This document shows, one piece after another, positions 6,228-22,662 of a stretch of 45,127 nucleotides of DNA (position 1 is the first letter of the stretch; each line of letters opens with the position of its first letter). The stretch lies in the NCBI RefSeq assembly GCF_004022215.1, contig NZ_SAUZ01000029.1, positions 1-45,127 of the forward strand, read 5' to 3'. The notes beneath the pieces are model-generated. The model was not told the origin of the DNA. It made no database searches and saw only the letters and a list, made by a program, of their open reading frames with translations. This DNA is from Paenirhodobacter populi (lineage in GTDB: Bacteria > Pseudomonadota > Alphaproteobacteria > Rhodobacterales > Rhodobacteraceae). The position numbers and the translations under genes were made by a program.

Positions 6228-6274
6228 CCCTAGACGCCAGGCCGGGTCGTCGAACCACCATTCCGGGGCGATCC
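6228..6274 (-). pseudogene. imuB: 3' fragment of imuB separated by the transposon
   Basis: Reading minus strand from the transposon edge gives IAPEWWFDDPAWRLG, the conserved C-terminal ImuB motif. The imuB copy at 21395-22662 stops exactly before this point (ATGPER). Joining the two over one copy of ATCC gives ATGPERIAPEWW in frame. Similarity ends after DPAWRLG, so the last part of imuB was already lost here. Confidence 0.85.
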
Positions 6275-6345
6275 TGCTGGTTCGCAGAGAAATCGGCACC
6301 CGATTGCGTTAAGCTTCTGCACCCCGTCGCGTGACCTTCGGCACC
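6275..6345 (+). repeat. left terminal repeats of the IS21-type element
   Basis: Three consecutive units: 6275-6300 (begins TGCTGG, ends GGCACC), 6301-6323 (CGATTGCGTTAAGC then TTCTGCACC) and 6324-6345 (ends CTTCGGCACC). The second unit closely matches 21345-21323 on the minus strand (CGATTGCGTTAGTC then TTCGGCGCC). They are presumed IstA binding sites. Confidence 0.82.
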
Positions 6346-6378
6346 AACCAACAACCAGAGTAACAGACCTCAACGTTA

Positions 6379-6431
6379 GCGAAGGCGAGAAGCGCGGAGA
6401 CCTCAATTATCGCAGCGGTTCTCGCCTTCGC
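6379..6431. repeat. 53-bp dispersed hairpin, copy 1
   Basis: Stem GCGAAGGCGAGAA pairs perfectly with TTCTCGCCTTCGC, with the loop holding GCGCGGAGAC and ATCGCAGC. A second copy of identical length is at 40726-40778, with the same loop motifs and an A-T to G-C exchange at stem position 10. It lies about 215 bp beyond the 3' end of the NACHT gene, inside the transposon. Confidence 0.75.
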
Positions 6432-6645
6432 GGTTGTTGTGAGCGGCGGTACCAAAAGGGCGGAGAGCCGACTGATGGCAGTGCAGCGTGGCAGACGCAG
6501 AAACCTTGTCAGAGCGGCCGTTCGGACGGACTGCAGCGAAATCTCAGTCGGAACCGCCGCCAGGGGCGGAAAGCGGCCATTTGCCGCGATTGCAGACTTC
6601 AAAGGGTAGACCTGCAAAGCGGCCGTTCGGTTAACAGAGTCCCGC
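6432..6645. other. intergenic region with short GC-rich relic repeats
   Basis: No gene seen. The stretch contains recurring short motifs of the form GCGGCCGTTCGG (about 6513 and 6620) and AAAGCGGCCATTTG (about 6580). They look like decayed copies of a small dispersed repeat rather than coding sequence. Confidence 0.35.
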
Positions 6646-9600
6646 TTACATAGTGTCGGACGGTTTCTCCGAGATGTCGCGCGTAACTGCGACCACCATC
6701 TTACCGTCAGAAAGGCCATCATTTACTTCCGCACACTTATCTCCCACGAGTGCAGCGAGTCTTGCGAAGTTTACTTCTTCACCCGCGACAGTCTTTCGGA
6801 AGGCGCTTCTTTTGACACCCTTAGTTTTCTTGTCCATCACGTCCTCCCTAGGGAGGGACGCATTAACAAGAACATATATGCCGGTGTGAGATGAAGCTTC
6901 GAACAAATACTGTTTTGAGAGCTGTTCATCAGGAGTGGCGACCAATTGGTCTCCTTTCCAATGCTCCATATCGGCAAGCTTGATTTCAACTGACACCTTC
7001 CCCAAGGCGTCCACCCTCGAATGCAGCCTGAGATCGGGCCGTTTCTCACCAGCGACTTCTTGCTCCCGGATGACCGTGTAGTAGCGCTCCCCCACCTCTC
7101 TAAGCCGGGCGGCTAGCCAATTTCTCAAGTCAGCTTCTAATGCCTTGCCACGCCGGAAAAATGCGCTTTCATCATCGTCGGAGGTGTGGAGCCGTTCGAG
7201 GAGCGTCGCTAGATGCGATTGGCAAAGCTTCCTGAACTCTTCCACAGTCGCGGGTGCCTTGGACTGATCGTTGAGGAACTGAATTGCTTCATCAGGTGAA
7301 AACTCAGTCCGTCTTCCTGCCCCTCGCTTCATCAACTCGATCTGGTACAAAAACGTATCCCGGTAGCCCACAAGCATTTTTGACTTGGCCAGTCGTTCAA
7401 ATGCGCTGACAACGCTGGCTGTTTGAAAGGCCGCCAACATGCTTGTGTAGTTTCGCCTGTTGCTTTCTGCGTGGTCAGCTTTACCCGGCGAGTACACAGT
7501 CTCATGCTTCACATCGTTCTCGGGAGGCCATGCCAAGTAAGATGCTTGAACCAACCACTCTAGAAGAATTGGATCGTGCTTATATTCACCTCTCACAGGG
7601 TCCGATCCTTCCCCTAGAGCAGGATTGTTTTTCTCGTGCCCCAAGTATTCGAAAAACAGTGCCCTCTGTCCGGCGCTGTGGAGATCACCAAAGGTCGAGA
7701 CCAACACGCTTCTAGCGGCGTTTGAGTTCGCGTCCATCAGACCATCAAGCCAAACCCACGCCTCTCTGAAATCAAACCGGGTCAACGCCGCTCGATAGCC
7801 TGAGACAAGAAACCTAGAAAGGCGGTTCCGCTCGACAGCAGGGGCGCGTGCCACGACGTCTAGACAGAGCATTCTATCACGGCGGTTCTTTGGAAGATCA
7901 CGCATCATCATCCGCAGGAGCATCGGCGCCACTAGGCTTCTAGTTCTGACACCCGAGTAAGCAATTTTTCTCACGCAATCAGAAACGTGGTGGTCATCGT
8001 CACCTTGCTTAGTGTTGAAGTCTGACAGCAACGCACCTTTGATCTCAGAGACAAATTGGCTTGGAAAATCCTGCGCTAGCTCATCAACCCATTCGGGAAA
8101 GCCGTTCAACTCGTGAAACGCGTAGCGAAAAGCCTTGCGGGCAAGGTCTGCATCTCTGGGCATCTCTCCCAATGAGTAATCCAAGTTGATGCCAGCTAAG
8201 CCAATGTGGCCGAGGTATGTTCGTCTTTCAGCGTAGCTCGTATCATGGGCCTTCCAGTATTGCCGCATGCCATCGCTGAATAACTGCGCAATACTAGAGC
8301 CATATTCTTCTTGGACTGCGCGGATCGTCCCGGTTCCAAGATCATTTGGAGCCTTTTCGAAAAGCCAAACCGCATTGCGCTTATCAAATTCACCAGCAAC
8401 AATGCTTTTACTATTTCTCGAAATGAATTTCCGATTCCTTCGGGCGGTTCGCCATAAATGAACGGCTTCCTTCCTTCCCTGGAACCACCTCAGAGCATCA
8501 TAGCGATATTGATGTTGCACGCAAGATTTTGTTCGGAGATACCAGCCGCGGACACCAAATTGTCGCCGCTGATCGTCGTCCCCATAAATTCTCAAATATT
8601 TTCTGAACTCACCCAACGCATTCCTATGCTCTTTCCCTCGAAGTTTCTCCAAAATGGTTCCTGACAGGTCAAGCAAGAACGCCCGATCATTTTGATCGGA
8701 GATCTTTGATGCGAGTTCGCAAAAGTGAGACACATCGGACTGATCGAAAACGTCTCCATTTTCATCCTTATCATCAAATTCTAAAGGGTGGATCACTCCA
8801 AACGGAACGCGATTCCGCTGAACTCGATCAGAAAATAGTGCTATTCGTCGTTGAACGAGAGCGTGCTTGACATCCGGTCGCGCCCGAAGGCCACTCGCGA
8901 GTTGCTTTGTCGGCGCTTTGCGGCCAAAAACGTCGATCCTGTGATCCTTGCCCATCGCCATCTCAATGGCATCAAGTAAGTCTTCATCGTCTGGGTGCAA
9001 CCCCTCATCACCCAATAACTCCGAAGCCAAATAGATAATGGCAGGCACAAACCTTCTATAGCGATCCGAAGCGTCTGGCATTCGGTAGCGGCTCTCGGAA
9101 CAGCCGGCAAATGCAAAGCGCAGCAATATTGACAGCCACAACTGTTTTTGGGGTCGCGGCAGGCCATCAAGTATTTCGATCAAATACTGAGATGTTGCAG
9201 ATGAATAGTTGGAGCGTTCTCTGTGAATTCTCGAAAGAATGGCAATCCCGTCGAGCAAGGCAGCTTCGCAGAAGCCGTACTTCAATGCCTTCAACAAGAA
9301 CATATTCCAGTTAGGAGCAGAATCCGTATCCTCGACATCCGGCGGCGTGGTCGTCAGGGCTTCGAACATGACATCAGCGCGAAATGAATCATCTCCTATT
9401 TCATCGAGGGCAGCACACGCTTCCGCTTTGCTGCGATAGCCAATTCCTGAATTTTTGACATAGCCCGCCAGTTTGGATGCAAGCGGCTTCATTCGACCAA
9501 ATCTAGCGACCTCGATCAAAAAGTCGGTTAACTCGGGAGAACTAGATTTGTCTAGAAGTTCATCGACTACAGGCCATAAGTCAGGGTGTGTGAAGCGCTT

Positions 9601-11019
9601 GACATCATCATGATAGAACCACTCGCCTCTGAAGCGAAGTTCGTCGTAGAGGCGCGCTTGATGGCGCAACGCGATCACCTTATCGCCTACAGATAGTGAT
9701 TTTGGGTCTCCAGTCTCGATTAGCAGCGCCGGCCTCACATTCGCCACAGCCGCCTTGGCGGAACTGTTCAAGGCCGCCAACCAGCCCATCACGTGCTCTG
9801 TTGACTGTGGAATCGACCGACGCCCTAGACCCTCGGCAAAAAGTGGCGCGATTGTTTCTTCGGAATGTGCTCTTGCTCGCAAGCTTGCGTCGAAATGTTC
9901 AGCTGCAAGGAAGTCCCGTATCTCCCGATGGGCGAACCGGATGCGCCCCCCAAAAGATGGCTGAAACAGCCCGCAGGCGAGCAGCTGGCGAACCTCTGTA
10001 GGTGTCCAAGCTTCCACATCTGTAGACAGAATATTTGCTGCATTCATGGCATCGCCTGCTGCCAACGGCAGGACAGAAAAATCCTGTTTACCTGACAAAA
10101 CCACGAAGGCTGCAAGTTTTGCTGCGGCCTTGCTTGCCCGGTGAATGTCAATGTTCAAGCGATCTTTGTTTTCAGAGCGCCCGAACAGCCGCCATGCCAC
10201 CAAATCGCGCATGACTTGAAGTCTTGATTTGAATACTTCATCGGGGGAGCGGCCTTCATCAATGGCCTTTTCCCAAACATCTAGGAATAGATTCGCATCC
10301 AATGGTTGTTGGATTAGGGCCGTGGAAAGATGGGCGTTTACGGCGTGTATGAAATCCGTGGGCTCTACGTCGCGAGAAACAGCAAATTTCTCAATGTCCC
10401 CACTCGCCAGCGGTGCTAGGCGATAAATCTTGTGTCTCGGGCCGTCTCTTCCCAAGTCCTGTTTGGCATCGCGTGTCTGCTTTATGAAACGAGTTAGAAG
10501 TCTTACATCGCCCTCCCCAAGCCACTCGCTTGGGCGACTGGTGACTAGAACGTGAAGGGGCCCCCGTCGTCGTCCAACTTCACGTGAGACAATGTCTAGG
10601 GCTTTTTCTAGCGCACTCTCATTGCGTGAAGACGGCAGGCGCGCCTCGTCGAGCGCGTCAAAAAATAGATACCCACCTTTTCTTGATCGCTTCCATTTTT
10701 CAAATCGGTCGCGTTGGTCATCCAATTCGAAATCAAATGAATCCGCCAAAGTTCCATCTTGTAGCGCTTCCAAGCGCATCAGGAATGCGTCTTGCCCATC
10801 CTTAACGAGGCGCTTTACATGCTGACGAATTTCAGTTGTTTTGCCTGATCCGGCGGTACCAAGGAGAACAGAAATATCATTTGTAAGAATTTCTTCCCAC
10901 GTTTTACCCGTTTCGCGGGTCGCGAGAGAAGCCCAAATGCTATCCGGTTCATTGTCAAAGTCTGCCGATTGGATTTCGACAAAGCGTCGTGACAAAGAAA
11001 TGTACTGGCTGTTGTTCAC
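6646..11019 (-). CDS. NACHT-type STAND NTPase with C-terminal PD-(D/E)XK nuclease-like domain
   Basis: A 1,457-residue protein, candidate anti-phage or anti-plasmid effector. The NTPase is at the very N-terminus: Walker A GTAGSGKTT (54-62), Walker B GGYLFFDALDEA (115-126, with the NACHT-style second acidic residues) and sensor VLVTSRPSEW (157-166). A long helical, repeat-like middle (about 300-1270) would be the sensor. Near the C-terminus, KALEADLRNWL, RPDLRL (Asp about 1329) and VSVEIKL (Glu about 1345, Lys about 1347) fit a PD-(D/E)XK nuclease core. Start is GTG 11019 with an upstream AGGGGA; an ATG two bases earlier is followed at once by TGA. Base composition is clearly more AT-rich than its neighbours, suggesting foreign origin. 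Avs-type STAND proteins usually carry the effector at the N-terminus, so the order here is reversed. Function is inferred. Confidence 0.8.
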   Translation of the reverse strand: MNNSQYISLSRRFVEIQSADFDNEPDSIWASLATRETGKTWEEILTNDISVLLGTAGSGKTTEIRQHVKRLVKDGQDAFLMRLEALQDGTLADSFDFELDDQRDRFEKWKRSRKGGYLFFDALDEARLPSSRNESALEKALDIVSREVGRRRGPLHVLVTSRPSEWLGEGDVRLLTRFIKQTRDAKQDLGRDGPRHKIYRLAPLASGDIEKFAVSRDVEPTDFIHAVNAHLSTALIQQPLDANLFLDVWEKAIDEGRSPDEVFKSRLQVMRDLVAWRLFGRSENKDRLNIDIHRASKAAAKLAAFVVLSGKQDFSVLPLAAGDAMNAANILSTDVEAWTPTEVRQLLACGLFQPSFGGRIRFAHREIRDFLAAEHFDASLRARAHSEETIAPLFAEGLGRRSIPQSTEHVMGWLAALNSSAKAAVANVRPALLIETGDPKSLSVGDKVIALRHQARLYDELRFRGEWFYHDDVKRFTHPDLWPVVDELLDKSSSPELTDFLIEVARFGRMKPLASKLAGYVKNSGIGYRSKAEACAALDEIGDDSFRADVMFEALTTTPPDVEDTDSAPNWNMFLLKALKYGFCEAALLDGIAILSRIHRERSNYSSATSQYLIEILDGLPRPQKQLWLSILLRFAFAGCSESRYRMPDASDRYRRFVPAIIYLASELLGDEGLHPDDEDLLDAIEMAMGKDHRIDVFGRKAPTKQLASGLRARPDVKHALVQRRIALFSDRVQRNRVPFGVIHPLEFDDKDENGDVFDQSDVSHFCELASKISDQNDRAFLLDLSGTILEKLRGKEHRNALGEFRKYLRIYGDDDQRRQFGVRGWYLRTKSCVQHQYRYDALRWFQGRKEAVHLWRTARRNRKFISRNSKSIVAGEFDKRNAVWLFEKAPNDLGTGTIRAVQEEYGSSIAQLFSDGMRQYWKAHDTSYAERRTYLGHIGLAGINLDYSLGEMPRDADLARKAFRYAFHELNGFPEWVDELAQDFPSQFVSEIKGALLSDFNTKQGDDDHHVSDCVRKIAYSGVRTRSLVAPMLLRMMMRDLPKNRRDRMLCLDVVARAPAVERNRLSRFLVSGYRAALTRFDFREAWVWLDGLMDANSNAARSVLVSTFGDLHSAGQRALFFEYLGHEKNNPALGEGSDPVRGEYKHDPILLEWLVQASYLAWPPENDVKHETVYSPGKADHAESNRRNYTSMLAAFQTASVVSAFERLAKSKMLVGYRDTFLYQIELMKRGAGRRTEFSPDEAIQFLNDQSKAPATVEEFRKLCQSHLATLLERLHTSDDDESAFFRRGKALEADLRNWLAARLREVGERYYTVIREQEVAGEKRPDLRLHSRVDALGKVSVEIKLADMEHWKGDQLVATPDEQLSKQYLFEASSHTGIYVLVNASLPREDVMDKKTKGVKRSAFRKTVAGEEVNFARLAALVGDKCAEVNDGLSDGKMVVAVTRDISEKPSDTM

Positions 11020-11189
11020 ATGAGTCCCCTATACACCTTAAACGATAGTATCAGCGGTGTGAGCGGTAATCCATCCGAGTTAGTGGCTCAAAGGGACCTA
11101 CCAAGCAGACTGGTGTGTGGTGCCACAGTTGATCGTCCGGATTGGCGGACTCAGGAGACGCATCGCAGGTGAACTGAACGTCCGCAAAG

Positions 11190-11357: not shown

Positions 11358-11476
11358 GGCCTTCTCTGTCCGGGGACTAGGTCGCCCATTTCGGCCAAAG
11401 ATGCCACTTGCTGTCCCGCGGCATGTTGTTCGGAGCCCATTGCGGTCATTGGCATTCAGATGCGATGCTTCCAACC

Positions 11477-12121
11477 ATGCCCAAGATGACCTTGCATATC
11501 ATCAACGCCCGCCATCAGCTTACCGGCATAGCTAAATGGCTTTCAGAGCGGCTGGACGATGCTTTTGTGGTGTCTGCTAAGCATTTGCCGCTGCTTGATA
11601 CGGATGTGATCATGAGGGCCGGCAAAGCCGTCATTCCTGAGAAGGGGCATCTGGGATATGCTCCCGAAAGAGGGCTGATCTACGTTACCGTAGACCCAGA
11701 AAACCCTATCTTGCGAACAAACCCATCACAGTCTTTGGAACGGATGCTGGCGCATGAACTGCACCACTCCTCGCGGTGGGACGGTCCAGGGTATGGCAAA
11801 ACACTCGGTGAGGCGCTTGTTTCAGAGGGGTTGGCTGGGCATTTCGCACAGGAAGTCTATGGCGGCGCGTGCGACCCTTGGGAGCAACTACCGGCCAGCA
11901 CCTTGCGCCCCTACTTTTTCAAAGCTCAAGCTGATTGGCAAAGCGCCGACTACAACCATGCGGAATGGTTCTTCGGATCACAGGAGTTCCCGGCATGGGT
12001 GGGCTACTCCCTCGGGTATGAGATGGTCGGGCGTTATCTGGCCGCGCATGGCGATGCGCGTGCCTCCAATCTGGTCCACGCGGACGCTGCCGATTTTCGC
12101 GCATTTCTCGACGCTGTTTGA
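11477..12121 (+). CDS. DUF2268-type putative zinc protease
   Basis: About 214 residues. LAHELHHSSRWDG contains the HExxH zinc-protease motif, followed by EALVSEGLAGHFAQEVYG supplying a further Glu and His, as in DUF2268 (predicted Zn-dependent proteases). A downstream AWVGYSLGYEMVGRYL stretch is also typical. Start is uncertain: ATG 11477 or 11486 fits the family better than the upstream TTG at 11408, which would add 23 unlike residues; no strong ribosome binding site is visible. It is convergent with the small-gene array on its right. Substrate unknown; in this cargo context a defence role is possible but unproven. Confidence 0.72.
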   Translation: MPKMTLHIINARHQLTGIAKWLSERLDDAFVVSAKHLPLLDTDVIMRAGKAVIPEKGHLGYAPERGLIYVTVDPENPILRTNPSQSLERMLAHELHHSSRWDGPGYGKTLGEALVSEGLAGHFAQEVYGGACDPWEQLPASTLRPYFFKAQADWQSADYNHAEWFFGSQEFPAWVGYSLGYEMVGRYLAAHGDARASNLVHADAADFRAFLDAV

Positions 12122-12134
12122 GCGGCAGCTTCGT

Positions 12135-12200
12135 CCGCAGAGTGACCGCCGCTGGCCCGCTCCAGCGCGAGGGTGCGGTCAGGTCAGCGGGGGATCGACA
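12135..12200 (-). repeat. cassette repeat, copy 1
   Basis: First of four near-identical GC-rich copies (shared core CCGCAGAGTGACCGCCGCTG to GGCGGGATCGACA). This copy has one base less at its left edge and AGCGGGGG where the others have GGCGGG. It lies directly 3' of the gene at 12222-12581. The core can fold: GACCGC pairs with GCGGTC, enclosing CGCTGG/CCAGCG. Confidence 0.85.
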
Positions 12201-12221
12201 TGAAGAGCCCATAGCGGACTT

Positions 12222-12581
12222 TCAGCTGAAACGCTGGACGTCCGCGACAAGCTGCACCGCCTTTGTGAGGCTGTCCCTGATCGTGGCCGACAGCGCGAAA
12301 AGCGCGGGCCCGTTGAAAACCTGGTTCATCACCTCAATGCTGGTAGTGCCGCCGTCTCTCGTCAGGCGCTCGGCCTCCACATCAAGATTTCGCAGTTGCG
12401 ACAGAACCTTATCTACCTCTTCGCTTTCAATCTTCCCGGTGTATCGGATGAGGGATGACGCAATATGGATAGGAGAAAAGTCGAACGCATCTACGCCGCA
12501 GCAAGCCGCTTCACAAAGCGTCTCGCAGTGCTTGATCAGCCCAAGCAAAGGGTAGTCCAAGGCAATTTGATGATCTTCCAT
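12222..12581 (-). CDS. small hypothetical protein, array gene 1
   Basis: A 119-residue acidic, helical protein starting MEDHQIALDYPLLGLIKHCE, with VDKVLSQLRNLDVEAERLTRD suggesting helices. I do not recognise the family. The frame is open further upstream, but that part is the neighbouring repeat, so ATG 12581 is preferred. It is the most distal of four tandem small genes, each ended by the same repeat. Such arrays are seen for orphan immunity genes against secreted toxins; that role is only a hypothesis here. Confidence 0.6.
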   Translation of the reverse strand: MEDHQIALDYPLLGLIKHCETLCEAACCGVDAFDFSPIHIASSLIRYTGKIESEEVDKVLSQLRNLDVEAERLTRDGGTTSIEVMNQVFNGPALFALSATIRDSLTKAVQLVADVQRFS

Positions 12582-12617
12582 AGCGCCTATATTACGCGCG
12601 GGGTGACCGGCAAGAAA

Positions 12618-12684
12618 GTCCCGCAGAGTGACCGCCGCTGGCCCGCTCCAGCGCGAGGGTGCGGTCAGGTCGGCGGGATCGACA
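12618..12684 (-). repeat. cassette repeat, copy 2
   Basis: Starts GTCCCGCAGAGTGACCGCC and ends GGGATCGACA, matching copies 3 and 4 over 67 bp, then diverges (GGCAAGCCC instead of GTCAGAGCCC). Located between the start of array gene 1 and the stop of array gene 2, ten bases 3' of that stop. Confidence 0.88.
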
Positions 12685-12693
12685 GGCAAGCCC

Positions 12694-13152
12694 TTAGCGG
12701 ACGGTCGGTACCCACCATGTGCCGGTTGTGTTGTCCTCAAAAATCCCATCGACCATTCGCGTGAGCGCTTCTAGAAGTTCCCTCGCTTGCGGCTCTTCAG
12801 GGTCAAAAGACGTCCATCCAGCCATGACGAAAATGCCTCTATCCGTTGTGGTGACACTCTCGTCGGAGGCGTCTCCAAAGCTCAGTCGCGCTTCGCAGTT
12901 AGACAATCTGCCCCTCAATGCCTCTGGCGCAGATCGTGAAATTTCTTCTGCTTCTTCTACGACCCAACTGTCATCTTCCAACTGCATGAGGAAGTTAGAG
13001 GGGTTTGTCACATGCAATTGCGGGACCACATAGCCATCTAAGCGCCATTCTGCGTCTATCACCTCAACACCCATACCCTGAAGGTATTCCTTGCACTGCG
13101 TAAGCGTTATCGCTGTGGCGGGCTTCTGGAACCAAATTCGAGCAGATTGCAT
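12694..13152 (-). CDS. small hypothetical protein, array gene 2
   Basis: A 152-residue acidic protein starting MQSARIWFQKPATAITLTQ and ending TGTWWVPTVR. It reads as a compact alpha/beta domain, with GIFVMAGWTSFDPEEPQARE near the C-terminus. No family recognised with confidence. ATG at 13152 follows AAGGTAG at a suitable distance. Its stop codon TAA lies at the margin of repeat copy 2. Size, acidity and setting resemble immunity proteins, which is inference. Confidence 0.65.
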   Translation of the reverse strand: MQSARIWFQKPATAITLTQCKEYLQGMGVEVIDAEWRLDGYVVPQLHVTNPSNFLMQLEDDSWVVEEAEEISRSAPEALRGRLSNCEARLSFGDASDESVTTTDRGIFVMAGWTSFDPEEPQARELLEALTRMVDGIFEDNTTGTWWVPTVR

Positions 13153-13205
13153 TTGTTCTACCTTGCAGATTCTGTGCGCGAGATTTTCATAGCTACGACC
13201 GCTTC

Positions 13206-13282
13206 GTCCCGCAGAGTGACCGCCGCTGGCCCGCTCCAGCGCGAGGGTGCGGTCAGGTCGGCGGGATCGACAGTCAGAGCCC
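13206..13282 (-). repeat. cassette repeat, copy 3
   Basis: A 77-bp copy from GTCCCGCAGAG to CAGTCAGAGCCC. It is identical to copy 4 across all 77 bases as read. It abuts the TAA stop of array gene 3 (13285-13283), so the repeat begins right at the end of the coding sequence. Confidence 0.9.
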
Positions 13283-13759
13283 TTAGCCGCCAGTCGCTTC
13301 CCACTTCTTTTGCCAGAATGTGATCTGGTAGTTGTCGAGTTCCTCGGGGTCGTCAGGCGTTGTGCTGATCACCCGACATGGTCGGTCGGGAAACTGCCAC
13401 ATCAGCTTTGCCTCATGTATTTCACACAACTGCCGTGTCAGGAACGCGACCACCTCACGTGACAGCCCATCGTCGTGGTGCAGGAAATAGTCCGTCAGGT
13501 GGATGTGATTCATAACGGCCTCTAAACCACGTGAATCACCAGAAAGACTGTCCTCCCATTCCGCTATCCCCTCTGCGCTCGCACCCTCCCTGAGGATGTA
13601 TGGGCCGACCAATTTAAACTTCGGCCACAGAAGCGCTGAATAGGACACTGACAAGCGATAGCTGCCTTCGTATTGCGAAAGAACTTCCAACTCCGCGCCG
13701 TTTCCGTTGTTCCAGGCGCTCAGCTCAGACGCGACTGGTTCAGGTGCTGAATAAGGCAT
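13283..13759 (-). CDS. small hypothetical protein, array gene 3
   Basis: A 158-residue protein starting MPYSAPEPVASELSAWNNGN; it contains aromatic-rich QYEGSYRLSVSYSALLWPKF and ends WQKKWEATGG. Family not recognised. ATG 13759 is preceded by AAGGAAG, a good ribosome binding site. The stop directly abuts repeat copy 3. It shows no visible similarity to its array neighbours despite the shared repeat, which points to a mix-and-match array and not a gene-duplication array. Confidence 0.68.
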   Translation of the reverse strand: MPYSAPEPVASELSAWNNGNGAELEVLSQYEGSYRLSVSYSALLWPKFKLVGPYILREGASAEGIAEWEDSLSGDSRGLEAVMNHIHLTDYFLHHDDGLSREVVAFLTRQLCEIHEAKLMWQFPDRPCRVISTTPDDPEELDNYQITFWQKKWEATGG

Positions 13760-13793
13760 GCCGCTTCCTTAAATTTTGACGACCGTCCGCTCC

Positions 13794-13870
13794 GTCCCGC
13801 AGAGTGACCGCCGCTGGCCCGCTCCAGCGCGAGGGTGCGGTCAGGTCGGCGGGATCGACAGTCAGAGCCC
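13794..13870 (-). repeat. cassette repeat, copy 4
   Basis: A 77-bp copy identical to copy 3 as read, placed 11 bases 3' of the stop of array gene 4 and 34 bases 5' of the start of array gene 3. Confidence 0.9.
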
Positions 13871-13881
13871 AAAGCTGCCGG

Positions 13882-14304
13882 TTATGTTCTCGCGGTGCAC
13901 CTCCTTAATTCGCGGCGCGGATCGTGCCGTTGCACCGACAAAATGCGGTTGGCCTCGAAAGAGCGCCCAAGGTCAGAAATCACACGAAACGAGCAGCTAA
14001 GACAGTCAGGAGCGGTCAACTCAATAGTGAAGCGAGCGTCCTGAATCCACTCGGAGGGCATATTTTTGCTTTCCATCAAAAATTGAAGCGTTTTTGCGAA
14101 GCGTTGAGATAGCGGAGAAATTTGAGCTTTCTGGTCGCTGAATCGGTCATCCACCAGCGGTATGACAAGCAGGGCCGCACCCTCATCCTCTATCCAGTTT
14201 CTTAACTGACCGAGGGCCCAGTATCCGTTCAAATCGTTATTGCGGCTGATAAAAGCAGCGAGTCCATCATGAACGATACTCTGAAACTCGATGCGTCTTG
14301 CCAT
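13882..14304 (-). CDS. small hypothetical protein, array gene 4
   Basis: A 140-residue protein starting MARRIEFQSIVHDGLAAFIS and ending RRELRRCTART. ATG 14304 is chosen because AAGGCGG lies at the right distance; an in-frame ATG at 14325 would add seven residues. It is the promoter-proximal gene of the four-gene array. Not recognised. GNN-type or catalytic motifs are absent. Confidence 0.62.
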   Translation of the reverse strand: MARRIEFQSIVHDGLAAFISRNNDLNGYWALGQLRNWIEDEGAALLVIPLVDDRFSDQKAQISPLSQRFAKTLQFLMESKNMPSEWIQDARFTIELTAPDCLSCSFRVISDLGRSFEANRILSVQRHDPRRELRRCTART

Positions 14305-14356
14305 TCCGTTCCGCCTTCTAATCATTACCTAAGTTCGGCCGACGGTGGTATCCGTC

Positions 14357-14812: not shown

Positions 14813-15244
14813 TCAAAGCAGCCGGGCCCCGGGGCCGTCGTTCGCCAGATGATCGTCCGCGTTGACCAAAGGGCAACGTTTCACGCTAAGACATCCGCAG
14901 CCGATGCACATTGCCATCTTGTCGCGAAGCGCCGTGAGAATCTCGATCCGCCGCGTCAGATCGTCATGCCAGCTTGCGGCGATGCGCTCCCAATCGTGTG
15001 TGTCGGGCGGTGCGTCGCGTGGCAGTTGCGAGAGCGCTTGGGATATCTCGGCAAGCGGGATGCCCGCGCTCTGCGCGACTTTGATGACCGTCACGCGCCT
15101 CAGGATTTCACGCCGATAGACCCGATGATTGGCCGAGGTCCTCTCGGATGCAATCAGCCCCCTGCGTTCATAGAAATGGAGCGTGGAGATGGGCAACCCG
15201 CTGCGGCGCGAGAGTTCGCCGACGGACAATTCCTTCTTCGCCAT
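14813..15244 (-). CDS. soxR: SoxR, redox-sensing MerR-family activator
   Basis: A 143-residue protein with a MerR helix-turn-helix (SVGELSRRSGLPISTLHFYE), a dimerisation helix, and the C-terminal [2Fe-2S] cysteine set CIGCGCLSVKRCPL (CX2CXCX5C), diagnostic of SoxR. It senses redox-cycling compounds through cluster oxidation and remodels promoters with long spacers. ATG 15244 has AAGGAG upstream. It is divergent from an MFS exporter with a SoxR-like box between them. Outside enteric bacteria SoxR usually controls efflux and modification genes directly, which fits. Confidence 0.95.
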   Translation of the reverse strand: MAKKELSVGELSRRSGLPISTLHFYERRGLIASERTSANHRVYRREILRRVTVIKVAQSAGIPLAEISQALSQLPRDAPPDTHDWERIAASWHDDLTRRIEILTALRDKMAMCIGCGCLSVKRCPLVNADDHLANDGPGARLL

Positions 15245-15255
15245 TCGGAATCTCC

Positions 15256-15286
15256 TTGACCTGAACCAATGTTGAGGCCGTAGCAG
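15256..15286 (+). promoter_or_regulatory. SoxR box within a long-spacer promoter
   Basis: The dyad CCTGAACCAATGTTGAGG (15260-15277) matches the SoxR consensus CCTCAAGTTAACTTGAGG at the conserved arms. It overlaps TTGACC (-35, 15256-15261) and lies ahead of TAGCAG (weak -10, 15281-15286), a 19-bp spacer as expected for MerR-type activation. The promoter points to the MFS gene and sits 12 bp from the soxR start codon, so it may also serve autoregulation. Confidence 0.75.
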
Positions 15287-15310
15287 CCTATCCGTCAAGA
15301 GGAGACGGGC

Positions 15311-16753
15311 ATGGCGGACGCGGACACAGAGGCAGGGAAGGACACGGAGACGTTCGTGTCATGGAGGGAGTTTCTTGGAAGCCCTTACGCGGCATCGCTG
15401 GCCCTGGTTTGCCTGGCCGTCTGGCTGCACGCGGCCGACAGCCTGATCGTCGCCACCATGCTCCCCTCCATCGTGGCCGAGATCGGTGGAGCCGCTTTGG
15501 TGGGCTGGTCTGTCTCGCTCTACGAGATCGGGTCAATCGTCGCGGGAGCGGCCAGCGCATTGCTGATCATACGCTTCGGCCTGCGCGCGCCGATGGGCAT
15601 GGCCGCCGCCCTGTTCGGGTTCGGCTGCATTCTCAGCGCCGTCAGCCCGGCCATGCCGTTGCTTCTGACGGGACGCGCGTTGCAGGGGCTCGGCGGCGGC
15701 GGTCTGGTGGCGATGGGCTTCGTCGCGGTCGGCCTGATCTTCCCGCGCCGCTACATCGCGCGCGCGATGGCGGCCGTTTCGACCCTTTGGGGCGTCTCGG
15801 CCTTCGCTGGCCCGCTTGTCGGCGGCTTCTTCGTCGAATATGCGACATGGCGTTGGGGCTTTGTCTTCTTTGCCTGCCAGGCATTCGCACTCGCCCTCTG
15901 GATCGTCCTGCGAAGCGATGCGGGCGCGACACGACCCACGGCCGACGCCGCTGCATTCCCTGTCGGGCGTCTGTCCCTGTTGTGTCTCGCTGTCGTTTTG
16001 GTCGCCTTTGGCGGCGTCGAGGTCTCGATCCCGCGAACGGTCCCTTCCGTCGCCGCCGGTCTGGTCTGCCTAATCGGCTTTCTGTGGCTGGACGAGCGCG
16101 CAGGCGATACCCGGCTTCTTCCGCGTCGTCCGTTCGATCCGCAGCGGACGGCCGGTGCCGCGCTGCTCATGATCCTGTCCATGTCCATGGCGACTATTGC
16201 CGTCACGGCGTTCGGGCCGCTCCTGGTCACGGCCATCCACGGCGTATCCGCGCTGACTGCCGGTTACATCGTTGCCTGTTCGTCCATCGGCTGGACGGTC
16301 ATGGCCGTTCTGGTCAGCGGATTGCCCGAGCGGTTCGATCGGCTGATGATCGCGCTCGGCATGACGGCCGTGGCCCTCAGCATCCTCGGCTTTCTCCAGG
16401 CGGTTCCGGAAGGCCCGGTCTGGCTGATCGCCGTCTTCGCAGCCTTGGAGGGCGGCGGCTTCGGGATGGCGTGGACATTCGTTCTCAGGCGAACGGTGGC
16501 GCTCGCCGATGCAGGCGAGGTCCAGCGCGTTTCCGGGGCGATCCCCACGATTCAGAGGCTCGGCTACGCTCTCGGCGCGGCCTATGTCGGGATCGTAGCG
16601 AATGCCTCGGGCCTGCTGTCCATGGAGACGGCCGCAGACGCCGCGAAGGTTGCCCGATGGGTCTTCCTGTCATGCGTGCCGTTCGCGGCAATCGGGCTGA
16701 TCGCCATGAGCGCACTGGTGCGGAAGGGGAAATCACGACCGCGATCGAAATAG
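15311..16753 (+). CDS. MFS multidrug efflux transporter
   Basis: A 480-residue inner-membrane protein with about 12-14 hydrophobic segments beginning at residue 28. RALQGLGGGGLVAMGF and a GPLVGG stretch are typical of drug:H+ antiporters. The ATG has a GAGGAGA ribosome binding site. Directly downstream of a SoxR box and divergent from soxR, it probably exports redox-active compounds such as phenazine- or quinone-like molecules; the substrate is inferred from regulation only. Confidence 0.9.
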   Translation: MADADTEAGKDTETFVSWREFLGSPYAASLALVCLAVWLHAADSLIVATMLPSIVAEIGGAALVGWSVSLYEIGSIVAGAASALLIIRFGLRAPMGMAAALFGFGCILSAVSPAMPLLLTGRALQGLGGGGLVAMGFVAVGLIFPRRYIARAMAAVSTLWGVSAFAGPLVGGFFVEYATWRWGFVFFACQAFALALWIVLRSDAGATRPTADAAAFPVGRLSLLCLAVVLVAFGGVEVSIPRTVPSVAAGLVCLIGFLWLDERAGDTRLLPRRPFDPQRTAGAALLMILSMSMATIAVTAFGPLLVTAIHGVSALTAGYIVACSSIGWTVMAVLVSGLPERFDRLMIALGMTAVALSILGFLQAVPEGPVWLIAVFAALEGGGFGMAWTFVLRRTVALADAGEVQRVSGAIPTIQRLGYALGAAYVGIVANASGLLSMETAADAAKVARWVFLSCVPFAAIGLIAMSALVRKGKSRPRSK

Positions 16754-16897: not shown

Positions 16898-17041
16898 CCG
16901 TTCCTGCCGTTGGGTCATAGATGCTACGGAAGATAGCAGGCTCGGTCCGAGCGCCTTACGCGCGAAGTCTTGGTACTTACGCAGGTGCCCACCGGCAATG
17001 TCGGAAACGGGGTGGCCGAGTATCATCGGCTTTCGAGCGGG

Positions 17042-17761
17042 TCAGCCTGGCGGCATATAGGGTCCAGTGGCCGCCATAGCTTCGGCCTCTGTCTGGAGCG
17101 GCAGATGATCGCGGGGAATGGGGTTGGGGTTCTGCCAGTCAGTTTCACCAAGTTCCCTGAACCGTCTGATGGCGTCTTCGATCACGGTGCGGTCGATAGT
17201 CGGAGAGGCAACGACGATCTCCAGCCCTATGCCATAGCGATACGAGCGGTCGAGCCGGAACGTTTCGTGGATCTCTGGTGGGGTGTCGCGCAGGATCTCA
17301 GAGGCGGTCCGTTCCTCATATTCTCTGACGGTCAGGCCCTCAAGCGCGGCATGGCGGCTTGGCTCCGGTCGGGTCACCCGAAAGTATTTCTGCCGCCCGA
17401 CATGAAACGCAGGGCTGAACTCCCAGCGGAATTCCTCGTCCAACTCTGTCTCGCTCAGGTGTGCGTGTGTCCGTTCGGCAGCGAGGTTCTGAACGCGATC
17501 CCAGAATTGCAGGTTTCCGGTAATGATGCTGGCGTTCCAGATGCTGTGGTCATCGAGCCCCAGAAACATAAAATCGAACCACTGCCTGAAAATATCGGGG
17601 CGCCCCGGCTCGTTTAACACCAGATCGCTGGTGAACAGCCCACCGTATGTCGGTGCGTCGCCGAGGATCTTCCAGCGCAACTGCACGAAAGCATCACGTT
17701 GTCGGTGTTTCGACAAGGCAGTGAACGGGGTGAAGCGGGTATGTTTGCGGCGTCGGATCAT
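17042..17761 (-). CDS. hypothetical protein
   Basis: About 239 residues, no signal peptide or membrane segment, many charged residues. Readable stretches include FRQWFDFMFLGLDDHSIWNA and GIGLEIVVASPTIDR. I do not recognise a family. Two adjacent ATGs (17764 and 17761) follow GAGGAG; the second has the better spacing. It is in the same direction as the small gene at 18099, 86 bp upstream, and could be co-transcribed with it. Part of the transposon cargo. Confidence 0.6.
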   Translation of the reverse strand: MIRRRKHTRFTPFTALSKHRQRDAFVQLRWKILGDAPTYGGLFTSDLVLNEPGRPDIFRQWFDFMFLGLDDHSIWNASIITGNLQFWDRVQNLAAERTHAHLSETELDEEFRWEFSPAFHVGRQKYFRVTRPEPSRHAALEGLTVREYEERTASEILRDTPPEIHETFRLDRSYRYGIGLEIVVASPTIDRTVIEDAIRRFRELGETDWQNPNPIPRDHLPLQTEAEAMAATGPYMPPG

Positions 17762-17847
17762 CATCTCCTCGTGAGCCTCGGTGACGCCCCGGTCCTACCT
17801 GAGCTCCGGCAGCAAAATTCGCTACACTCGCACAGTTCTGCTTGATC

Positions 17848-18099
17848 TCAATCGGCCGCAAGGCCCTCACCGTCACCATACCCGTGCTTTTCCAAAAGAT
17901 CTCGCACGAGAACGGGGTATGCCCTGTCCTCTCGCTCCCCTCGGATCATCAACCGTGTCAGATAGCTGAGCGGAACCCTGACCTCCAGCGTACAATCGAC
18001 GTCATGCTCGGGGTGTGCTTCGAGATGGCGGAGCCAGACTGTCAGGTTCTCCAGCGTTTCTGTCCTCGGAAGCTCGTTCCCCACGCATGTCGCAACCAT
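17848..18099 (-). CDS. small hypothetical protein
   Basis: An 83-residue acidic protein (MVATCVGNELPRTETLENLT...). GGAGGG lies eight bases ahead of the ATG, a strong translational start. No recognised domain. It lies upstream of and co-directional with the hypothetical gene ending at 17042, and diverges from the XRE regulator at 18204 across a 104-bp gap that probably holds both promoters. Confidence 0.55.
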   Translation of the reverse strand: MVATCVGNELPRTETLENLTVWLRHLEAHPEHDVDCTLEVRVPLSYLTRLMIRGEREDRAYPVLVRDLLEKHGYGDGEGLAAD

Positions 18100-18203
18100 T
18101 TCTACCCTCCTGCCGCATCTTCACGATCCATGCGGACAAGGAACCGCAAAACTGTGACTATAGTCAATAGATACATCGTTGTCCCTTCGCCATTAGCACT
18201 GGG

Positions 18204-18464
18204 ATGGAACGGACGAATGCCAAACTCATCAAAGCCTTCGCGAAGGTATTGAAGCGCAGGCGGCGGGCTGCCGGGCTGTCGCAGGAAGAGTTGGCGTTTC
18301 GCACCGACCTGTCGCCAAGCTATATCTCGCTTTTGGAAACGGCGAATCGTCAACCGACACTGACCGTTCTTGCTGAGCTATCGGATCGCCTTGGCATTGA
18401 CCTGCCGGAACTCATAGCAGAGATCACCGCAGAGCAGAACGGGCAGCCCCCCGGACATAGCTGA
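18204..18464 (+). CDS. XRE-family helix-turn-helix regulator
   Basis: An 86-residue single-domain Cro/C1-type protein: KVLKRRRRAAGLSQEELAFR, then SPSYISLLETANRQPTLTVL, is the classical HTH. Similar size to phage repressors and restriction-modification controller proteins. Divergent from the small gene at 18099 and 141 bp upstream of the Ner-like gene. A repressor role over the transposition genes is plausible by position. Confidence 0.88.
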   Translation: MERTNAKLIKAFAKVLKRRRRAAGLSQEELAFRTDLSPSYISLLETANRQPTLTVLAELSDRLGIDLPELIAEITAEQNGQPPGHS

Positions 18465-18605
18465 TTGAGAAGATGTGATTATTCAATATGCGTATCGCGG
18501 GTTTCTGGCCTGTGACAATCTGTATTTAGATAGATTTATCGCATTAATTACAATAACTTGCAAGTTTGCTCTCGATTTGTCACGTTGTTGGCACGGAGGC
18601 AGGCC

Positions 18606-18830
18606 ATGGACGCAAGGCGCGGTCGTCACGAGACAATCAAATACGAGTTGCGGATGAAGGGCACTTCATTCGCCGAGTTGGGCCGCCGTCATGCCGTGCA
18701 CCCGTCGGTGTTCTCAGCCGTTGCATCCGGCCGCAGGCGTTCACTCCCCACAGCGAAGATCATCGCCGACGCACTGGGCACCGACCCGTCGATCCTATGG
18801 CCCGAATTGTACGGAGATACAGATGGCTAA
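18606..18830 (+). CDS. Ner-like DNA-binding regulator
   Basis: A 74-residue protein. IKYELRMKGTSFAELGRRHA, then IIADALGTDPSILWPELYGD, closely resembles phage Mu Ner, with the IWPSRY-type ending. In Mu, Ner represses early transcription upstream of the transposase genes A and B. Here it lies directly upstream of istA and istB, which are functional counterparts of MuA and MuB. GGAGG lies upstream of ATG 18606. The AT-rich stretch 18475-18600 before it probably carries the promoter. Confidence 0.82.
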   Translation: MDARRGRHETIKYELRMKGTSFAELGRRHAVHPSVFSAVASGRRRSLPTAKIIADALGTDPSILWPELYGDTDG

Positions 18831-18831
18831 G

Positions 18832-18857
18832 TAAAAGAAAACCGCCGAAACCGGCGG
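18832..18857 (-). terminator. intrinsic terminator reading on the minus strand
   Basis: CCGCCGAAACCGGCGG forms a hairpin; on the minus strand it is followed by a T-rich run (TTTTCTTTTA). No minus-strand gene ends here, so it would stop antisense transcription coming out of istA or shield the regulators from it. Confidence 0.5.
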
Positions 18858-18992
18858 CTCTCTCCGAGAAGATCTCGTAAGGTTAGGTCCCTTTCCCAGA
18901 ACTTCCTCGATTGCAGTCGCCAAGTCAAGAACCGGCCACCTGGCCGGACGAATTTCTGCACCCTGCGCGTGGCGCAGGTTCGAGAGGATATT

Positions 18993-20555
18993 ATGAAATC
19001 GGATATTCGCAGGATGGCCGAAAGGCTGTTGGACCCGACCCTCAATCACACCGAGGTCGGACGTCTCATTAACCGAAATCGCGACACGATCCGGCGCCTG
19101 CGCCGGAGAGCTGTACAGGCAGGTCTCCGGCCTGAGATGTTGGGCGATCTTCCAGATGCGCGCCTGCGCGACATGCTCATGCCGTCTGGTCATCGCAAGG
19201 TTAGATGCGTTCAGCCCGACTGGGATGTCATCGTCCGCCATATTCTGGCGACGGGCGACAGCGTGCTGGACACCTATGATGACATCTATCTCAAGCAGCA
19301 GTCCACCGATACCGATCTCCCGCCTATGAGCTATGCCAACTTCTGTCGGGAGCTCGCCAAAATCCTGAAGCGACGTGCCCCCGAATACCGACATCATTAC
19401 CGGCCGGGCGAAGTGATGCAGATCGATTTCGCCGGATTCCAGCCCGTCTGGACTGACCCTCAGAACGAGCGCAGGAAATCGACCCTGCTGATCGCCCATT
19501 TCCCGTTCTCGCAGTTCTGCCTGGGGGAGGTGATCCAGAGCCAGAGTCGGGCGGATGTGATCCACGGTCTCACCCGCATCTTCGTTCGCTTGAACGCTGC
19601 TCCCCGACAGATCATCCTCGACAACTTCAAGGCTGCGATTGACGTTGCCCGAAGTAAGCGACGAGAAGCCAGGATCAACGCTGAGTTCCAGGCGTTTCTG
19701 GATCATTATCGGATCGTGCCGGACCCTGCCCGCGGGAGAGAGCCACGCGACAAGGGGGCTGTCGAGGGGACGGTCAGGCTGAGCCAAAGATTTTATGCGA
19801 GGGTTTTGCGGGACCGCACGCCTCGATCAATGGCCGAGCTGAACGAGTTGCTGCAAGCCGCGCTGGAGCATCTGAATGACAAGGTCATGCGGCGCTGGAA
19901 AATGTCACGGAACGAACGCTTCCGAACCCGCGAAATGCCCTGTCTACAGCCGCTGCCCAAAACCTCTTATGATTATGGCAGCTGGCACCCCGGTATCAGG
20001 ATCCAGCGTCACTATCACGTCAACGTCGAAGGGCGGGATTACAGCGTGCCGTCATACCTGATCGGTGAGCTGGTCAGCCTCAAGGTTATGGCCGCGACCA
20101 TCGAAATCTACCACGATTCGACGCTTGTGGCCGTACATCCTCGTCGCGCTGTCACGCCAACCGATGACGCGCCGATAATCGACCCGACCCATATGCCGGA
20201 AAACCATCGCGCAATATGGCAGCAAAGCCCGGATGCCCTCATCGCGCGCGCCACCGACTACAGTCGGTGCCTCGGGCGGTTCGTGTGCAAGCACTTAGAT
20301 GTCAATTCCAACCCCCGAGCGACATATAGCATGTTGAAGCGGTTGCTCGAAGTCGCGCCGGTCTACGGCAAAACCACGATCGATGCAGCCTGTGCCGAGG
20401 CTCTCCGGCGCGATCAGATCAATGCCGATGCGCTGCGGCAGATTCTTAACCGGGGCCCGAAAAAGCTGCCGCGCCCCGAACCGCAGCAGGCCCCGCCACC
20501 GTCCGAAAACATCCGCGGTGCGGGCTATTATTCGGAGGACGACGATGCAGCATGA
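18993..20555 (+). CDS. istA: IS21-family transposase IstA
   Basis: A 520-residue IS21-type DDE transposase. N-terminal helix-turn-helix with NRNRDTIRRLRRRA; catalytic triad candidates MQIDFAGFQ (Asp), IILDNFKAA (Asp) and KGAVEGTVRLSQR (Glu); C-terminal beta-rich domain with GRDYSVPSYLIG. ATG 18993 with AGAGGATA upstream is preferred to the upstream start at 18969. Its 3' end overlaps istB by 11 bp, suggesting translational coupling. It should recognise the multiple repeats at 6275-6345 and 21301-21394. Confidence 0.94.
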   Translation: MKSDIRRMAERLLDPTLNHTEVGRLINRNRDTIRRLRRRAVQAGLRPEMLGDLPDARLRDMLMPSGHRKVRCVQPDWDVIVRHILATGDSVLDTYDDIYLKQQSTDTDLPPMSYANFCRELAKILKRRAPEYRHHYRPGEVMQIDFAGFQPVWTDPQNERRKSTLLIAHFPFSQFCLGEVIQSQSRADVIHGLTRIFVRLNAAPRQIILDNFKAAIDVARSKRREARINAEFQAFLDHYRIVPDPARGREPRDKGAVEGTVRLSQRFYARVLRDRTPRSMAELNELLQAALEHLNDKVMRRWKMSRNERFRTREMPCLQPLPKTSYDYGSWHPGIRIQRHYHVNVEGRDYSVPSYLIGELVSLKVMAATIEIYHDSTLVAVHPRRAVTPTDDAPIIDPTHMPENHRAIWQQSPDALIARATDYSRCLGRFVCKHLDVNSNPRATYSMLKRLLEVAPVYGKTTIDAACAEALRRDQINADALRQILNRGPKKLPRPEPQQAPPPSENIRGAGYYSEDDDAA

Positions 20556-21288
20556 ACATGTCGTTGCGCTTGCTCGTGAACTGTCTCTTGCGGGCTTAGC
20601 CGATACGCTCGAGCGTCAGGCCAAAGATCCGTTCTTTGCGGACATGGCCTTCGTCGAAAGGCTCGCCGCGCTACTGATCGCAGAGAAGGAGCGGCGCGCG
20701 ACCAGCCGGCTGACGCGGATGCTGAACGAGGCGAAACTCCCGATCAAGGCGGCCCCCGAGGAGCTGATTGGCGATGAGGCACGGGGCTTCAAGACCGCTG
20801 TCATGCGCGAGCTGCTGAAATGCAGCTGGATCCCCTTCGCCTGGAACGTCCTTATCAGTGGCGAAACCGGAACCGGCAAAAGCTGGATCGCCTCCTGCAT
20901 CGCCACGGCCGCCATTCGCGCCGGACACAAGGCCCGCTATTACAAAGTCTCCGACCTGCTTTATAGCCTGTCGATGACGCTGGAAGACGGCGTTTACCTG
21001 CGAGAGCGCGAAAAGCTGTCCAAGTTCAGGCTCCTGATCCTCGACGACTTCGGCAAGGTTGCGATGAGCGAAACCGAGAAATCGATCCTGTTCGACATCA
21101 TCGAAGACCGAAGCGGGACCCTGTCGACCATCATCGTCGGCCAGCGCCCCTATAATGACTGGCATGGCTTCATCGACAATCCGGTCATCGCTGACGCGAT
21201 CCTCGACCGCCTGTCGCGCGACCGCCATCACATCAAGCTACGCGGCGAGTCACTGCGCCGTCGCGAGGCCAGTTTCGACGGTCTGTAA
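20545..21288 (+). CDS. istB: IS21-family transposition ATPase IstB
   Basis: A 247-residue AAA+ protein, the MuB/DnaC-like partner of IstA. Walker A GETGTGKSW, Walker B LLILDDFGK, and the C-terminal RLSRDRHHIKLRGESLRR are typical. It forms assemblies on DNA and selects targets for IstA. ATG 20545 overlaps the istA 3' end. The gene ends 12 bp from the first right-end terminal repeat, so istAB is the terminal module of the transposon. Confidence 0.95.
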   Translation: MQHEHVVALARELSLAGLADTLERQAKDPFFADMAFVERLAALLIAEKERRATSRLTRMLNEAKLPIKAAPEELIGDEARGFKTAVMRELLKCSWIPFAWNVLISGETGTGKSWIASCIATAAIRAGHKARYYKVSDLLYSLSMTLEDGVYLREREKLSKFRLLILDDFGKVAMSETEKSILFDIIEDRSGTLSTIIVGQRPYNDWHGFIDNPVIADAILDRLSRDRHHIKLRGESLRRREASFDGL

Positions 21289-21300
21289 ACTGCCCCCTTC

Positions 21301-21394
21301 GGCGCCGAAGTTGACGCAACCCGGCGCCGAAGACTAACGCAATCGGCTGCGGAAACCTGATGCAGTTTGGTGCCAAAAATCATGCGTGCGTGCA
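21301..21394 (-). repeat. right terminal repeats of the IS21-type element
   Basis: Four tandem units: 21301-21322 and 21323-21345 both begin GGCGCCGAAG and contain ACGCAA; 21346-21368 is GCTGCGGAAACCTGATGCAG then TTT; 21369-21394 runs from GGTGCC to the terminal TGCA. On the minus strand they mirror the left-end units. The duplicated target ATCC follows at 21395-21398. Confidence 0.85.
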
Positions 21395-22662
21395 ATCCGT
21401 TCAGGCCCTGTGGCACGGTGCGTGGTGAAGGACATTCGCCGCCAACTGAAGAGGGCGGGGGGGCTGCCGGAGACCGAGGCAAGCGGCTCCGGCGGGAACA
21501 GGGTGATCGGGCGCCGGGGGCGGCGCTTTTTCGGGAACGGCTCCGGCCCTGCGTAGGCCACAGGTACGATGAGAAAGCTGCGCTCCGAGATCCGGCTGCT
21601 GGCTGGCAGGAAGCGCTGCACCGCCTCGAACCCGAGCCGGTTGCCGAGACGGGAGATCAGATCGGAGAGTTCATCCTCTTCCCTGATCCTGGCATTTCCG
21701 ACCTGCTCTGGCGCCAGCGGCTCCGTTGTCACCGCGAAGAGCCGCAGTCCGTCGATCCATAACCGCTGTCGACTTCGTCTACCCCTTTGCGGAACAGTAC
21801 GGAAATCCGGGCCGGATCCCGCATCGGTCGGGCTAGGCCGACCTCGACCACCGCAGCGGACCTGTCGACGCGCTGCAACTCCAGCCGAACCTTCCGTGTC
21901 CCCTGCCCCGCCCTCGCCAGCTTGTCGCAAAGCCGGGCCAGGAGTCGGTCGAGCGCCGCCATCACATCCGAGGTCAGCCCGATCGGTTCGGGCAGGGTCA
22001 TCCTCACCCCGAAATACGGCGCATCCGTTTCCGCAGCCACCGACTCCCCTTGTGTCCCGAGCGCCTGATCCAGACGGCGCAGCAACTCCGGGCCAAACCG
22101 GCGGGCGAGCGGTGCCCGCGGGACAGTGGTGAGGTCGGCAATCTTCTTAAGCCCCAGCCGGGCCAGCCCTTCCGAGATCTCCGGCCCGATCCGGAGCGCG
22201 CCCACCGGTAGCGGGCCGAGCTTTTCCAGCAGCGCCCCTCCGGGATCACCCCGCCGCCCCGCCGGGCCAGCGCCCAGGCCCTACCCCGCGTCCCGGCGAT
22301 CGCGCTCTTCGACCCGATCCAGTCGCGCTTCGACATCCGCCAGCAGCTCTGCTTCCCCGCCGAACAGATGCGGCACACCGGAGACGTCGACGATCAGCCC
22401 ATCGGAGCCATCCTTCGCGGCGTGCGGTCCGTATCGGCTGGCCCACCGGCCGGGTCGAGAGACAAGGTCAGATCGCCCTCGCATCCGCGAGTGGCATGCC
22501 GCGATGCAGCCCGGCGTGGCTGGCGGCTTCGTTCAGACAATGCAGCTGCTCGGCGTTCGACGCCCTGAGCGTCAACGCGAAAGGCCCTTCAACGGGACAG
22601 CCCCTCAGGCTGACGTCGCTCGCCAGTTGGGGGAGCCAGATGGAAAGCAGCCGTCGCTCCAT
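21395..22662 (-). pseudogene. imuB: imuB, Y-family polymerase-like SOS mutagenesis protein, decayed
   Basis: ImuB segments appear in order but in different frames: MERRLLSIWLPQLASD (22662), DGLIVDVSGVPHLFGGEAEL, SAIAGTRGRAWALARRGGG, LPEPIGLTSDVMAALDRLLA, and RFLPASSRISERSFLI to ATGPER at the transposon edge. At least four frameshifts separate them, and part of the region after LADARAI seems deleted. ImuB is an inactive polymerase homologue that links ImuA and DnaE2 in damage-induced mutagenesis. The gene was additionally split by the transposon; the last motif is at 6228-6274. Confidence 0.88.

Follow-up and report, generated by a model that had tools for sequence, protein, structure and literature searches.

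The subject of this report is a 15,120-bp segment (positions 6275-21394) of contig NZ_SAUZ01000029.1 from Paenirhodobacter populi, the whole 45,127 nucleotides of which were analysed and are called the window here. Our findings identify the segment as a single mobile unit whose two ends are homologous to each other, are bracketed by a target duplication and enclose the transposase genes istA and istB together with large cargo. These ends, the duplication, an empty site and two more complete units found in other genomes bear out the initial annotation, which saw an IS21-type transposon with large cargo in this place, and we hold it very probable that we are dealing with a cargo-bearing unit transposon from a distinct IS21-family branch.

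The left tip of the element starts TGCTGGTTC and the right tip reads ...GCGTGCA (TGC...GCA overall), both ends being inverted repeats built of 22-23-bp units. A plain comparison of the two is moderately strong only: without gaps, the left end ranks first among other matches over 60 bases (36/60; runner-up 31/60), is equalled by an unrelated site over 80 (39/80) and falls outside the top six over 40, and with gaps it scores 58 versus 37 at the best unrelated place. Hidden Markov models (HMMs) were therefore made solely from ends in other genomes, namely three right ends from other genera and four left ends from other plasmids, with the window excluded. On the window, the right-end HMM matches 21393-21297 on the minus strand (E 1.7e-7) and 6285-6347 on the plus strand (E 2.8e-6), the next match having an E of 0.2, while the left-end HMM matches 6275-6370 (E 4.8e-23) and, on the minus strand, 21354-21298 (E 3.8e-6), the next being 0.38; the best match among 20 shuffled windows reached 0.37. 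Since models free of the window pick out exactly the two places where matching multi-unit repeats had been annotated, we regard this test of the homology of the ends as decisive and non-circular.

ATCC stands on either side of the element, as had been annotated, and when the flanks are rejoined with a single copy the imuB frame reads through the junction. The imuB gene of Fuscovulum blasticum pRsa aligns to the rejoined flanks over this junction, with no gap at that point, so the empty site with one ATCC that the initial annotation had proposed to look for does exist. Its claim of a continuous imuB thus holds in frame, but only about 43 bp of imuB (6232-6274) lie left of the element, so that the gene is truncated at the left as well, by a second loss. 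One could argue that the segment travels in some larger genomic island or in a prophage that has an integrase of its own and that the ATCC match is fortuitous, the chance of a 4-bp match alone being 1 in 256. The single ATCC at the junction in the related imuB and the placement of the ends at these very points by the HMMs speak against this, as does a Pfam scan of ten open reading frames (ORFs) of the element, none of which is an integrase, and we consider such an island very unlikely.

That ends of this type surround other cargo elsewhere had been suggested as a check, and two complete units were found. The one in genome G327 measures 11,180 bp with AGCAAAC on either side and the one in Litoreibacter (G397) 14,475 bp with CGGGAAA, both being 7-bp duplications. 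They have a right module (the istAB core) of 5,188 bp in common, which is 96.5% identical and stops exactly at the right end, as well as left-end pieces of 77 bases (91%) and 75 bases (83%); blastn at E 1e-3 shows no other common sequence between them, and their cargo differs. Rejoining the G327 flanks leaves a frame open over the junction. By eye, the gene split there (L027 985-3231 and 14357-17627) is DNA-polymerase-like and lies near a reverse-transcriptase-like gene. The insertion sites of the three complete units all differ, their left ends lie 8.8-12.7 kb from istA, and right tips end in TGCA in each of eight aligned loci, with differing flanks.

These data bear on the view that the unit arose by accident, its left end being a remnant of some other IS21 copy, and what lay between this remnant and a resident IS21 having been trapped once, without any cargo lineage. 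Modules of the composite or one-IS kind do arise in such a way, as excerpts of a paper on Paracoccus transposable modules (TMos) indicate (PMC3281130), and five of the eight left-end loci known to us lack istAB. Nevertheless, an accident is hard to reconcile with three complete units with duplications, with a near-identical core next to different cargo in two genomes, with the missing repeats beside istA described below and with the single close istA copy in the genome itself, where the best other match has 25% identity; we see this account as largely refuted and very unlikely.

Sequence comparison also supports the element as a member of a branch rather than a one-off. In a tree of 19 aligned IstA sequences (ten of the group and nine others, with the outgroup row L033_ord on a very long branch) a branch with support of 100/98 separates the ten from the rest, and the group trait needs 1 change on this tree versus a mean of 6.7 when shuffled. 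All ten group members have a helix-turn-helix (HTH) gene immediately before istA, as opposed to 0/9 of the others. In 8/8 ordinary IS21 elements, terminal repeats are found no more than about 270 bp away from istA (scores 40-94, each over all 200 of its own shuffles), whereas none of nine group members has a repeat pair above shuffles in the 500 bp upstream of istA; L103 and L033, with istB unannotated or not intact, stood outside this test. We conclude that the left end has moved away from istA in these nine members. A metallophosphoesterase considered as a transposon-specific core gene was rejected, as it has relatives in 230 plasmid records.

The istAB pair lies at the right end, in agreement with the initial annotation, and no transposase is found at the left end, so that the element holds one copy of istAB only. 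IstA matches NF033546 with 156.2 bits (E 1.3e-45; cut-off 160) and PDB entries 8b4h/8q4d at about 1e-9, and IstB matches NF038214 with 193.7 bits (E 3.7e-57; cut-off 200; longer ORF 20383-21288) and PDB entry 8q3w at 4.2e-18, these being IS5376 structures. D143, D208 and E256 of the aligned IstA fragment are residues at what we take to be the places of the DDE triad. IstA is divergent, with 27-32% identity in the best 40 of 2,835 plasmid records, and IstB reaches up to 42% among the plasmid matches listed (at least 5000 records). Scanning genome contigs with IstB gave seven loci at 56-99%, and an IstB profile (E 1e-60) run on whole genomes gave hits in 2/18 of the same genus and 6/390 of the order (own genome counted in both), two of the latter six being flagged for internal stop codons. 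The left end is present from its first base in four of seven matching plasmid records and, among 17 other genomes of the genus, in one (G407); across 394 family genomes, a 176-base left-end query had matches in 12 besides the own genome, all of them partial and mostly of hairpin type. No relative was found in viral contigs.

The hairpin in question, variable in its stem and constant in its loop, lies near the left border in all eight left-end loci. In 17 distinct sequences, 14/17 pairs have changes on both sides and 90.0% of cells pair versus 75.7% in shuffles and 39-46% when the partner is shifted by 1-3 columns, though this set of 17 from 20 listed omits L083 (a close copy of that in L003) and L020 and L021, which pair poorly by eye and whose omission raises the paired share. 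A second copy occupies window positions 40724-40787, and further ones occur in L018 and L020 (near 1500), next to a type IIG restriction-modification (RM) gene elsewhere in the own genome (contig C67; L088, near 6686) and next to a Loktanella TniQ/TniB/Mu-type transposon and other transposases, the latter named by eye. The Loktanella transposon genes span L073 336-7134, with the hairpin near 216 and a metallophosphoesterase adjoining; L088 7708-14001 encodes the type IIG restriction-methyltransferase as well as a helicase that fits DISARM- and PLD-type helicase models. Loktanella G398 was dropped as another istAB-linked left end, the hairpin there adjoining a TniQ/TniB-type element. In Rhodobacteraceae, several transposon classes have the hairpin near their borders, and it also recurs next to defence genes. 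Rfam gives no match in the window at gathering thresholds; a terminator, an insulator or a recombination handle are possible roles.

This distribution, along with the five left-end loci that lack istAB, would suit a model in which the left repeat and hairpin belong to some other defence-associated mobile element or hotspot, where IS21-like istAB are secondary. The window-free HMMs, however, relate the left-end repeats to the right-end repeats beside istB, and in three genomes the duplications sit exactly at the outer edges of the left and the right end. We accordingly give this model very little weight and continue with a cargo-bearing transposon of the IS21 family.

As for the cargo, a defence-family gene is among the first two genes inward (annotated or predicted; PADLOC threshold 1e-4) in 8/8 loci with a defined left end, by a rule chosen after the loci had been viewed. 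PADLOC alone accounts for six, namely K. vulgare p3 (type I RM, then a SIR2 gene), P. pantotrophus pPAN1 (NsnC; deeper NsnAB and Hachiman HamAB), P. ferrooxidans pFER2 (a weaker IIG-like methyltransferase, 3.4e-28), P. sediminicola p1 (Tmn-like), G407 (DruE) and G327 (DndB/DpdB-like; also HNH, MT-A70 and D12 methyltransferase genes). NCBIfam only accounts for the other two, the HyoA-like gene of the window and, in G397, EruA (1223 bits; cut-off 1000), with a SIR2 protein third. Two more group members, G483 (hairpin adjoining) and G474, have Gabija genes, and L037 shows an HsdM-like fragment by eye; L097, L038, L040, L042 and L033 are not part of this cargo assessment. Outside the ends, 0/10 proteins match PADLOC, a contrast that is uneven in that the inside proteins were also scanned by NCBIfam and the outside ones by PADLOC alone; nor do the ten resemble the HyoA-like or EruA proteins by phmmer. 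They are nearest or next-nearest genes, nine from seven left-end loci and one from G483, where only hairpin and istAB were located, and they include neither the IS5 transposase that adjoins the left end of L001 nor a 139-aa ORF of L072.

Several points weigh against our reading as a whole. Besides the after-the-fact rule, the uneven scan and the choice of outside genes just given, there are toxin-antitoxin pairs beyond the ends in L003 and L006, L003 also has a type I RM gene outside, at a distance of about 7 kb, and no recognised defence gene was seen in Ruegeria L036 (one protein scanned) or in G550 L098 (siderophore-type genes, by eye). The left ends of these last two loci were not found either, and no TGCA tip was seen after istB in G426 (L097). 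The NCBIfam scores of IstA and IstB are slightly below curated cut-offs, and the HTH protein has relatives in non-IS21 loci too (L006, L073, L088). No transposition was seen, and we infer both the mobility of the element and its benefit to the host. Finally, of the eight left-end loci, five (G407 and four plasmid loci) have neither istAB nor a detectable right end, so that much of the left-end evidence stems from relics or derivatives. The initial annotation would have had to give way to a left repeat that is always present without istAB; this describes those five loci, but the other three have istAB and the 'always' fails. For the four plasmids, no right end was obtained by target-duplication matching, repeat-unit patterns or HMMs (W01 and W03 searched whole, W02 and W04 in part), and a search over the entire records of these plasmids had no match under E 0.2; the G407 contig stops soon past its homologue of the 240-aa gene, and the left end of L037 falls beyond its contig. 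The left-end-only loci may be relics, possibly by deletion, and a Paracoccus IS21 element is reported to generate large deletions (PMC3281130).

Features of the element and its borders are listed in the table.

Table. Features of the element, with positions in the window.
Feature	Position	Strand	Evidence
Left copy of target duplication, ATCC	6271..6274	.	sequence, empty-site comparison
Left end: TGC tip and three repeat units starting 6292, 6315, 6337	6275..6345	+	HMM, recurrence elsewhere
Conserved hairpin, stem variable, constant 20-nt loop GGAGACCTCAAWTATCGCAG	6377..6433	+	covariation
NACHT/STAND protein, 1457 aa, related to antiphage HyoA	6646..11019	-	NCBIfam NF058534
DUF2268 predicted Zn protease	11408..12121	+	Pfam 2.4e-34
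Four small genes, each with 99-nt direct repeat at 3' end; one DUF6331	12122..14325	-	
SoxR-type MerR regulator	14813..15298	-	NCBIfam TIGR01950, 185.6 bits
MFS transporter	15311..16753	+	Pfam 5.2e-40
240-aa protein, no assigned function	17042..17764	-	relative in G407 locus, 83% over 234 aa
Ner/SfsB-like HTH protein, upstream of istA	18558..18830	+	Pfam HTH_35 2.2e-9
istA, DDE transposase	18969..20555	+	NF033546, PDB 8b4h/8q4d
istB, AAA+ target-capture ATPase	20545..21288	+	NF038214, PDB 8q3w
Right end: repeat units starting 21377, 21354, 21331, 21309, terminal GCA	21297..21394	-	HMM
Right copy of target duplication, ATCC	21395..21398	.	sequence, empty-site comparison

The initial annotation spoke of defence-like and regulatory cargo. 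The former is borne out by the 1457-aa protein, which NCBIfam relates to HyoA (NF058534, 577.8 bits, under the equivalog cut-off of 1200) and PADLOC matches at just 6.3e-4. As to the latter, regulatory genes do lie inside the element, but we would assign the HTH gene before istA to the core rather than to the cargo, because it is common to the whole IstA group. Phaeobacter inhibens pP78_a encodes a HyoA-like protein of 89% identity with short flanks, and a repeat-pattern scan of 24.6 kb around it shows no left end, so the gene travels in other contexts too. The copies of the 99-nt repeat (12122-12220, 12608-12706, 13196-13294 and 13784-13882) are 66-94% identical to the reference copy and have a 48-base core that is identical in all four; placed behind four different small minus-strand genes, they look like cassettes or a polyimmunity array. 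We found no plasmid match for them, no unusual fold and, by eye, no canonical attC motif. The 240-aa protein has relatives in 19 plasmid records, hypothetical wherever annotated, and an uninformative predicted fold (pLDDT 36.9); several cargo proteins match no family at all. The contig, 45 kb of a 4.78-Mb genome, has its closest matches among Rhodobacterales plasmids and is itself probably a plasmid, given the RepC-, RepB- and ParA-like replication and partition genes (judged by eye) at 23948-27545.

How does the element compare to known systems? With the IS21 family (IS21, IS5376) it has in common the DDE transposase IstA and the AAA+ protein IstB, multi-unit repeats, TG/CA tips and a short duplication, the anatomy used for comparison being that in excerpts of PMC10122671. 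It departs from the usual arrangement of istA and istB alone with adjoining ends in that the left ends of the three complete units are 8.8-12.7 kb away from istA rather than at most about 270 bp, and in that an HTH core gene and cargo genes are added. Tn7-like transposons, with their large exchangeable cargo that includes defence genes (excerpts of PMC8649781), may work alike, and they too have several transposase sites per end (excerpts of PMC10122671), yet they rely on a TniQ/TnsD selector and a TnsB/TnsC pair, while the element uses IstA/IstB, has no TniQ among its ten Pfam-scanned ORFs and belongs to units whose three insertion sites differ. Paracoccus TMos, in which one IS likewise mobilises neighbouring DNA, are based on IS1380-type elements according to the same excerpts of PMC3281130, whereas both ends are defined here and recur elsewhere. 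Composite transposons also hold cargo between IS-type ends but have two IS copies. None of the literature matches listed reports cargo-bearing IS21 transposons in its title or in the opening of its abstract, a coverage that does not extend to subscription papers, bioRxiv or ISfinder. By analogy, the element may be seen as an IS21-family variant that works like a Tn7-like cargo carrier.

In IS21 biochemistry, the repeats of either end are bound by IstA tetramers, and it is IstB that captures the target DNA (excerpts of PMC10122671). In line with this, we envisage that IstA tetramers would bind the repeat units of the two ends and bring these together over 15 kb, and that IstB would capture target DNA and activate strand transfer, leading to the duplication of 4 bp here or 7 bp in the two relatives. 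The small HTH protein may control transposase expression. An exchangeable cargo bay would span from the left end with its hairpin to the right-hand core HTH-istA-istB with its accessory genes, which vary from one sub-branch to another; often filled by anti-phage systems, the bay could benefit the plasmid or host and hence the element, a lifestyle like that of Tn7-like elements but reached by an IS21 engine.

IS21 has been treated as a minimal two-gene family, and IstA/IstB is a structural cousin of Tn7 and Mu. We put at about even the chances that an IS21 branch in Rhodobacteraceae became dedicated anti-phage vehicles, with a fixed HTH-istA-istB core and ends, a swappable defence bay and a left hairpin, common to other transposon classes, that maybe marks or insulates the bay. 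If true, the element ends would be a practical bait for new defence genes, the two proteins would offer a compact system to move large DNA, and the IstA/IstB machine, in units of 11-15 kb, would also spread bacterial immune systems.

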